Source of the DNA: Leptolyngbyaceae cyanobacterium JSC-12
Lineage (GTDB): Bacteria > Cyanobacteriota > Cyanobacteriia > Leptolyngbyales > Leptolyngbyaceae
DNA length: 64,000 nt
Direction of reading: 5' to 3'
Assembly: GCA_000309945.1 (NCBI GenBank)
Contig: CM001633.1
Coordinates: 332,723 to 396,722 of the forward strand
This document shows positions 48,627 through 50,304 of the stretch, piece by piece. Within the stretch, counting starts at the first letter, position 1; each line of letters opens with the position of its first letter. Position numbers and translations under genes: made by a program. The notes beneath the pieces are model-generated. The model had not been told where the DNA came from. It did not search any database and saw only the letters and a program-made list of their open reading frames with translations.

Positions 48627-49733
48627 ATGCAATTGCGAGGAATCAACGTACAGCACTGGTTAAAAACGGGGCTAACCCTGCTCCTGATGGTGTCCTTATC
48701 CGTTGGGTTAATGGCAGCAAAACCAGTGCAAATTAGTCGCTTACCGGCTGGAAACGCCATTACAGACGGTAAAGCCTTGTTACGCTCTGCCTTACCGATT
48801 GACAATCAGCCTGTCCGAGATTTACAAGCCAGTTTGGAAGATATTTCCACGCAACTGCGAGCACAGCGTCGCTGGGGGGCGATCGCAGGCGACATCGCCA
48901 AAGCCAATCGTATCTTGACCGATAAAATAGATGCTCTTCTAGCGAGTGTTCCAAACGCAAACAAAGCCAAAGCTCAAACCCTGATTGAACAAATCAAAAC
49001 CGAGCTCCCCACCTTACAAGCAGCAAATGATGCCAAAGACCGCCAACAGGTCATCGAGGCACGCAGCCACATTTTGGATTTAGTAGGTGAGCTAGAAGAG
49101 TTGATGGTGCCAAGTTTTCCCTACGAGGTACCAGAAGCTTACAGCCATCTACCCCAACTCAAGGGACGGGCAACGGTTGAGTTTGTCACGAATAAGGGCA
49201 AGATAACAGCAGTAGTAGATGGGTACAGCGCTCCAGTCACAGCGGGCAACTTTGTAGATTTGGTGCAACGTGGCTTTTATAACGGCTTACCCTTCACACG
49301 GGCTGAAGAATCTTACGTGCTGCAAGTGGGAGATCCCCCCGGACCAGAAGTGGGCTTCATTGACCCCAAGACCAAACAATATCGAGCGATTCCCCTGGAG
49401 GTAATGGTCAAGGGCGACAAAGAACCTACCTATGAAATCACGTTGGAAGATGCCGGACGCTTTCGAGAACAGCCTGTTCTCCCGTTTTCAGCGTTTGGCG
49501 CAATGGCACTCGCACGACCTAGTGATGATCCTAACGGTGGCTCTTCGCAGTTTTTCTTCTTCCTGTTTGAACCGGAACTCACCCCTGCTGGAGCAAACTT
49601 ACTAGACGGACGCTATGCCATCTTTGGGTATGTCACAGAAGGCAAGGATGTCTTGGACCAACTCAAAGCAGGGGACAAGATTGAATCTGCCAAGGTCGTT
49701 CAAGGCTTAGAGAACTTACAACAACCTGTGTAA
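48627..49733 (+). CDS. Cyclophilin-type peptidyl-prolyl isomerase, exported
   Basis: A 368-residue protein resembling the CYP38/TLP40-like cyclophilins. An N-terminal hydrophobic segment (LTLLLMVSLSVGLMAAKP) is likely a signal for the periplasm or thylakoid lumen. A helical domain (residues about 50-165) is followed by the isomerase fold (KITAVVDGYSAPVTAGNFVD, GSSQFFFFLFEPELTPAGAN, RYAIFGYVTEG). Plant CYP38 assists photosystem II assembly; a similar role is inferred. The catalytic Arg of cyclophilins is not obvious. Confidence 0.9.
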   Translation: MQLRGINVQHWLKTGLTLLLMVSLSVGLMAAKPVQISRLPAGNAITDGKALLRSALPIDNQPVRDLQASLEDISTQLRAQRRWGAIAGDIAKANRILTDKIDALLASVPNANKAKAQTLIEQIKTELPTLQAANDAKDRQQVIEARSHILDLVGELEELMVPSFPYEVPEAYSHLPQLKGRATVEFVTNKGKITAVVDGYSAPVTAGNFVDLVQRGFYNGLPFTRAEESYVLQVGDPPGPEVGFIDPKTKQYRAIPLEVMVKGDKEPTYEITLEDAGRFREQPVLPFSAFGAMALARPSDDPNGGSSQFFFFLFEPELTPAGANLLDGRYAIFGYVTEGKDVLDQLKAGDKIESAKVVQGLENLQQPV

Positions 49734-49822
49734 GACGAGGAATTTCAAAGCAGTGAGGCTTGAGCAGCAGTGAGTAACAGATTTAGAAAGGTTAGGGATA
49801 CGATGCGATCGCTCCCTGTGAA

Positions 49823-50304
49823 CTAGTGCACTTCGTATTCTCCATCTTCGATCAAATTGATAAACCGGAATATACGTTTCATCCAGAACAATCACATCGG
49901 GAGCATGTCAGTTTTGCAAGTCTCTGCATTTGCCCTCATCCCCAACCCCTGCTCCCAAGTTTGGGAGCAGGGGAGTCGAAGCTTCAAGTCCCTCTCCCAA
50001 GCTTGGGAGAGGGATTTAGGGTGAGGGCGCAAAGGTGATATGCTCCCATCACATCTGGCTCAAACCCCGTATCCTCCACTGTCTTGACTACACATTCTTT
50101 GGGGATGAAGTATGGTAGATTTGCTTCCCAAATTGCCATGCCCAAGCTAAGAGCTAAATCTTCAGCGACCCTGGAATGCTTACCTTTAGGTTTTGGCATT
50201 TCAACAATCACACCTCGTCTCAGTTCATAGCGACAGTTGGTTGCTTCTGGATACCAGGCAATAAACTCATCAAAGGATGTGGGGGAAGAGAAGGCTTGAA
50301 TCAT
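49823..50304 (-). pseudogene. Uma2 family gene split by a MITE
   Basis: From ATG 50304, minus strand, the sequence MIQAFSSPTSFDEFIAWYPE...YELRRGVIVEMPKPKGKHS is the start of a Uma2 gene. After TGFEPDV the frame runs into the MITE. Removing the MITE and one target copy gives PDVIVLDET, the expected continuation, but the following stretch shows a shortened C-terminal region with a further frame change (EDGEYEVH in another frame before a stop at 49823). So the gene was damaged by both the insertion and internal loss. Confidence 0.75.
49899..50047. mobile_element. 149-bp MITE-like element with 8-bp target duplication
   Basis: The ends GGGAGCATGTCAGTTTTGC and the reverse complement of the other end GGGAGCATATCACCTTTGC match at 16 of 19 positions. 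The flanks carry the exact direct repeat ATCACATC (49891-49898 and 50048-50055). The interior holds palindromic segments around CTCCCAAGTTTGGGAG and CTCCCAAGCTTGGGAG and no gene. It is a non-autonomous element moved by an unidentified transposase. The same style of CCCTCA-rich interior is frequent in cyanobacterial intergenic DNA. Confidence 0.85.

Follow-up and report, generated by a model that had tools for sequence, protein, structure and literature searches.

A MITE with ISKra4-type ends interrupts a Uma2-family gene in Leptolyngbyaceae cyanobacterium JSC-12 and shares its palindromic core with MITEs of unrelated ends

The window analyzed here is a stretch of 64,000 nucleotides from Leptolyngbyaceae cyanobacterium JSC-12 (contig CM001633.1, positions 332,723 to 396,722). 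At positions 49899-50047 it carries a multicopy MITE of 149 bp, which does not contain a transposase. The ends of this element are of a matching GGGAGCAT... type and an exact ATCACATC is present on either side. Inverted ends and an exact 8-bp flanking duplication had been claimed for this element in a preliminary description, and here we found that its coordinates were exact and its letters correct. The features of the locus are as follows (basis of each assignment in brackets):

49716-49898, minus strand: 3' part of a Uma2-family gene, same frame, degenerate past about residue 110 (homologue alignment)
49891-49898, no strand: left target-site duplication ATCACATC (sequence and statistics over 16 copies)
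49899-49919, plus strand: left terminal repeat GGGAGCATGTCAGTTTTGCAA (21/21 against one end of the ISKra4-family IS at L132)
49932-50028, plus strand: palindromic two-hairpin core GCCCTCATCCCC...GGGTGAGGGC (common to MITEs with unrelated ends)
49946-49973, plus strand: core hairpin 1, CCCCTGCTCCCAAGTTTGGGAGCAGGGG (two-sided compensating changes between copies)
49986-50017, plus strand: core hairpin 2, CCCTCTCCCAAGCTTGGGAGAGGG with flanking pairs (folding and pair-change analysis)
50029-50047, minus strand: right terminal repeat, inverted, GGGAGCATATCACCTTTGC (end comparison including L132)
50048-50055, no strand: right target-site duplication ATCACATC (sequence and 16-copy statistics)
50056-50304, minus strand: 5' part of the Uma2-family gene (start codon presumably at 50304, judged from homologues)

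For reconstruction of the Uma2-family gene, the flanks of the element were joined and one duplication was removed. This procedure yielded a 143-aa protein, which matched PF05685 with 43 bits and aligned unbroken over the junction (EPDV/IVLDE) with homologues of related organisms (about 47-57% identity). The homology fades near residue 110 and the homologues are mostly about 205-250 aa long. Thus, in addition to being interrupted, the gene is degenerate. The earlier claim that the MITE splits a Uma2 gene is correct as far as the interruption is concerned, but the gene has also been damaged beyond the insertion. No true empty site for the window copy was found among the Uma2 homologues, since none of them was accompanied by a match to a neighboring gene.

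The pattern GGGAGCATNTCANNTTTGC is present without mismatch at both ends of the MITE and no other site of the window matches it with up to 3 mismatches. This pattern alone is not significant in the window (2 matches, a number reached in 18 of 100 shuffles), and GGGAGCAT alone is no more frequent there than in shuffled sequences. Because the end patterns alone are not significant, the evidence for the MITE is its set of copies. A genome search with bare GGGAGCAT was too unspecific, and copies were counted in the host genome (5.53 Mb, single contig) by sequence search with the element. Altogether, about 19 related copies were detected: 14 full-length copies with 89-100% identity, two diverged full-length copies (L018 and L021, 76% identity), a left-truncated, a composite, and a split one. 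The boundaries of the 16 intact copies were set by their ends, with adjustment by hand in L011, L012, and L018. Exact 8-bp duplications flank 10 of these copies, exact 9-bp duplications two (L015, L018), and a 7/8 match three others; L002 is the only intact copy lacking a duplication (1/16). Each of the exact duplications has a different sequence. When left and right flanks of different copies were combined (240 pairings), the best agreement was 6/8. Thus, the copies of the host genome arose by transposition and chance is excluded. True transposition had been proposed from the window alone and a search for same-ended copies with 8-bp duplications had been suggested; many such copies were found, and the 12 of 16 intact copies with different exact 8- or 9-bp duplications bear the proposal out.

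Several copies have an unusual structure. In L022 (1501-2830; G000:C1:921977-923306), a MITE copy is split within hairpin 1 by an insert of about 1.2 kb, which encodes one protein in two pieces of one frame. Judged by eye, we take this protein to be a candidate IS110-family transposase. Hairpin 1 of L014 and L015 (G000:C1:5356284 and 287794) contains TTGTATCTTAAAACT, and identical letters are found at the left border of the L022 insert. This segment is either the remnant of an L022-type insert or a MITE variant that served as target of the insert. L016/L010 (G000:C1:4111872-4112155) are tandem copies with GATAACTG between them, which is common to both, and the first is left-truncated. L024/L013 (G000:C1:82339-82562) is a 224-bp composite, in which the left part is repeated with about 36 bp of other sequence in between; it is flanked by 7/8 duplications.

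To relate the ends to a transposase, we compared them with those of insertion sequences. The ISKra4-family transposase profile (NF033572) matched in 97 of 194 cyanobacterial genomes. Of the ISKra4-family ISs that were read, several are about 1.15-1.2 kb long and carry ends of the GGGAGCAT type (e.g., GGGAGCATGTCACTTTTGCAAAAA) together with exact 8- or 9-bp duplications (L130, L135, L137, and L147, all from other cyanobacteria). One end of the IS at L132, GGGAGCATGTCAGTTTTGCAAACC, is identical with the left end of the MITE (21/21) and its other end matches the right end at 18/20 positions; this IS itself has no flanking duplication. Other ISs of the family agree with the MITE ends at 16-19 of 20 positions. 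In two ISs (L130, L144), the transposase is encoded by two ORFs, which overlap and differ by a -1 shift. A full-length IS with such ends and 8-bp duplications, the search for which had also been suggested, was thus found in the ISKra4 family, with duplications of 8 or 9 bp. The 8-bp length given in the preliminary description applies to the window copy and to 10 of the 16 copies, but family-wide the length is 8 or 9 bp. In the host genome, NF033572 gave no match, even at E-values up to 1, and in a congener (G001) the profile gave a match with no recognizable ends in the locus read. Since no ISKra4 transposase was found in the host genome, its copies are orphans and their mobilization in trans is something we infer. 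A transposase encoded by the host would be needed for activity at present, but not for descent of the MITE from such elements. Judged by its sequence, the element is an orphan MITE with ISKra4-type ends, which is a known kind of element.

Homologous elements with duplications are present in a congener (G002), in another genus (G017, 96% identical), and in other families. When the paired ends were used as search pattern, 44 of 388 genomes and 29 of 160 genera gave matches, and the reversed-pattern control gave none among the genomes listed. Among 28 elements from 28 other genomes, 18 had exact duplications (8 bp in 12 elements, 9 bp in 6), and many genomes with such MITEs also have ISKra4-family matches. 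The copy from the other genus (L111, G017:C175:1305-1454; 96% identity) has an exact 8-bp duplication and might have been acquired by horizontal transfer.

The element is predicted to fold as a single Y shape with an outer stem and two hairpins (-97 kcal/mol and a z-score of -10.3 as RNA, z-score of -9.3 as DNA). Elements with ISKra4-type ends are referred to here as class A, and the elements of G028 with TACAGCC ends as class C. In a set of 28 class A elements, 13 pairs were changed on both sides versus a shuffle mean of 4.1, with a maximum of 5 in slid controls. Two-sided changes in the ends are expected if one transposase reads both of them. In hairpin 1, such changes show that the palindrome is kept. 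Comparison with Rfam gave sub-threshold matches only, mostly to microRNAs.

The interior 97 bp of the element constitute the core, a CCCTCA/CTCCC-rich palindrome, which was found in MITEs whose ends are of at least three unrelated kinds. In G006 the core lies within elements ending with TAGACCTCTTGCA, and in G028 within elements ending with TACAGCCTTTACCT (86 exact ends in forward and 89 in reverse orientation, no control matches). The suggestion that the CCCTCA/CTCCC-rich DNA between genes is in part mobile proved right and can be extended to these MITEs. Both TAGACCTCTTGCA and TACAGCCTTTACCT start with TA, which suggests a TA target; ISs with TAGACC or TACAGCC ends were not present in the loci read. 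The MITE population of the 4.4-Mb genome G028 (L209-L238, L273-L302) is unusually dense; exact TACAGCCTTTACCT ends number 175, and a first look gave 704 core candidates. Conversely, ISKra4-type ends also surround other interiors, which are of the CACCC...GGGTG type, the GAACCGC/GAACCACGAAGG type, the GAAATATTTGAAAAAT type, and the GTCATTCCC...GGGAATGAC type. The palindromes of the latter type, which are enclosed by ISKra4-type ends in L329 and L330, resemble the ATTCCC-type repeats of other bacteria. On plasmids, the core was matched only in part.

The boundaries of the core (GCCCTCA...TGAGGGC) are sharp, and the similarity between the end-classes ends there. Within G028, the mean core identity was 90.3% between class A and class C, 87.7% within class C, and 93.8% within class A, and one pair of class A and class C cores is identical at 96 of 96 positions although its arms are unrelated. 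In the core tree, the class A rows of G028 required 10 changes for 11 rows versus a shuffled mean of 10.3 and are thus unclustered; the cores of most other genomes cluster, and class C is somewhat clustered overall. This tree and the mixing seen in it are based on 96 columns with few firm branches and on one genome (G028), with retrieval biased toward query-like cores. In addition, G028 contains a hybrid (L066) with a left arm of class C and a right arm of class A. From these sequence relations, exchange of cores by recombination or gene conversion appears likely.

Taken together, we consider it very probable that the element is a non-autonomous MITE with ends of the ISKra4 family (p-MULT 4, Mutator-like), which is mobilized in trans and belongs to MITEs that exchange their cores by recombination. 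According to this mechanism, an ISKra4-type transposase provided in trans would recognize the GGGAGCAT ends, and staggered cuts at insertion would lead to duplication of 8 (sometimes 9) bp of the target. The roughly 19 host copies would be either relics of past activity or dependent on an incoming IS. Cores would be swapped between MITE families by homologous recombination or gene conversion, which is the likeliest route since very many core-like sequences can share one genome. Trans mobilization and recombination as exchange mechanism are both steps that we infer. Going one step further, cyanobacterial intergenic palindromes might be exchangeable cassettes, with a few transposon ends (ISKra4-type, TA-flanked) and a few hairpin cores being freely combined within genomes. 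Several transposases would then spread one and the same core, and the cores of different MITE families would undergo concerted evolution. We put this forward tentatively, as slightly short of an even chance.

The most serious alternative is that the core is an independent mobile unit (REP-like or IS-like), which inserted into different MITEs by transposition of its own. The sharp core borders and the end of similarity between end-classes there would fit such a unit, as would cores without recognizable flanking ends in the host genome and elsewhere (L019, L023, L099). However, those bare cores that were looked at showed no duplication at their borders, no end-class was found to occur both with a core and without one at a given place, and the L066 hybrid is not explained by insertion of a core alone. 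We also saw no evidence of a core moving alone without such ends, and we regard independent mobility of the core as improbable. Alternatively, the mobilizing transposase might belong to a different IS family whose ends are similar, and might still be encoded in the genome. The abundance of the MITE in a genome with no detectable ISKra4 transposase speaks for such an enzyme, but the agreement of the ends with ISKra4-family ISs extends over about 20 bp, the duplication length fits, and ISKra4-family matches are present in many genomes carrying such MITEs, so that this scenario appears very unlikely. A chance arrangement of flanking repeats and inverted ends in palindrome-rich intergenic DNA, with which the unremarkable frequency of GGGAGCAT in the window would agree, is refuted by the duplications at dispersed copies and by the existence of ISs with such ends, and we give it practically no weight.

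Our findings link a very common type of intergenic DNA in cyanobacteria with a named family of transposases, and the origin of these repeats thereby becomes testable. They also indicate that what is shared and what is mobile are separate modules, and classification of MITEs by similarity of their interiors may therefore be misleading. For studies on genome rearrangement, these repeats represent a family of likely recombination sites.

Among known systems, the Mutator-like prokaryotic elements including the ISKra4 group generate direct repeats of 8 or 9 bp, and two overlapping ORFs with a -1 shift are a feature of the ISMich2 group (Guerillot et al., 2014, PMC3942029). Our element resembles the ISKra4 family (p-MULT 4, ISMich2 group) in its ends, which match the IS terminal repeats over about 20 bp, and in its 8- or 9-bp duplications. 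In contrast to the ISs, it lacks a transposase, and it has an interior unrelated to them. MITEs of Anabaena sp. 90 (PMC3542288) and a 187-nt MITE of Microcystis (PMC11448079) are likewise short, dispersed, hairpin-forming, and devoid of transposase, and some of them interrupt genes. They are set apart by their descriptions, since for the former the genome contains no IS that matches and the ends of the latter are of the ISL3 type. Nezha, cited in a review (PMC10969869) as a mobile cyanobacterial MITE, is similar in this respect. The GTAG/CGTC-tagged REP palindromes are abundant intergenic repeats, also in cyanobacteria (PMC3733652), and share with our element abundance, palindromic structure, and intergenic location. 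However, neither tag word occurs in the sequence of our element, which possesses terminal repeats and long duplications of its target. Very small mobile repeats of cyanobacteria have also been described (Elhai et al., 2008, as cited in PMC3733652). By description, they resemble our element as small repeated mobile cyanobacterial DNA. They are reportedly far shorter than the MITE described here. Searches of the open-licence literature retrieved no paper on the end or core sequences described here, which does not prove novelty, and by title and abstract none relevant to ISKra4 combined with MITE. MITEs as such are already known in cyanobacteria, and the unexpected part is the modular relation of ends and core.
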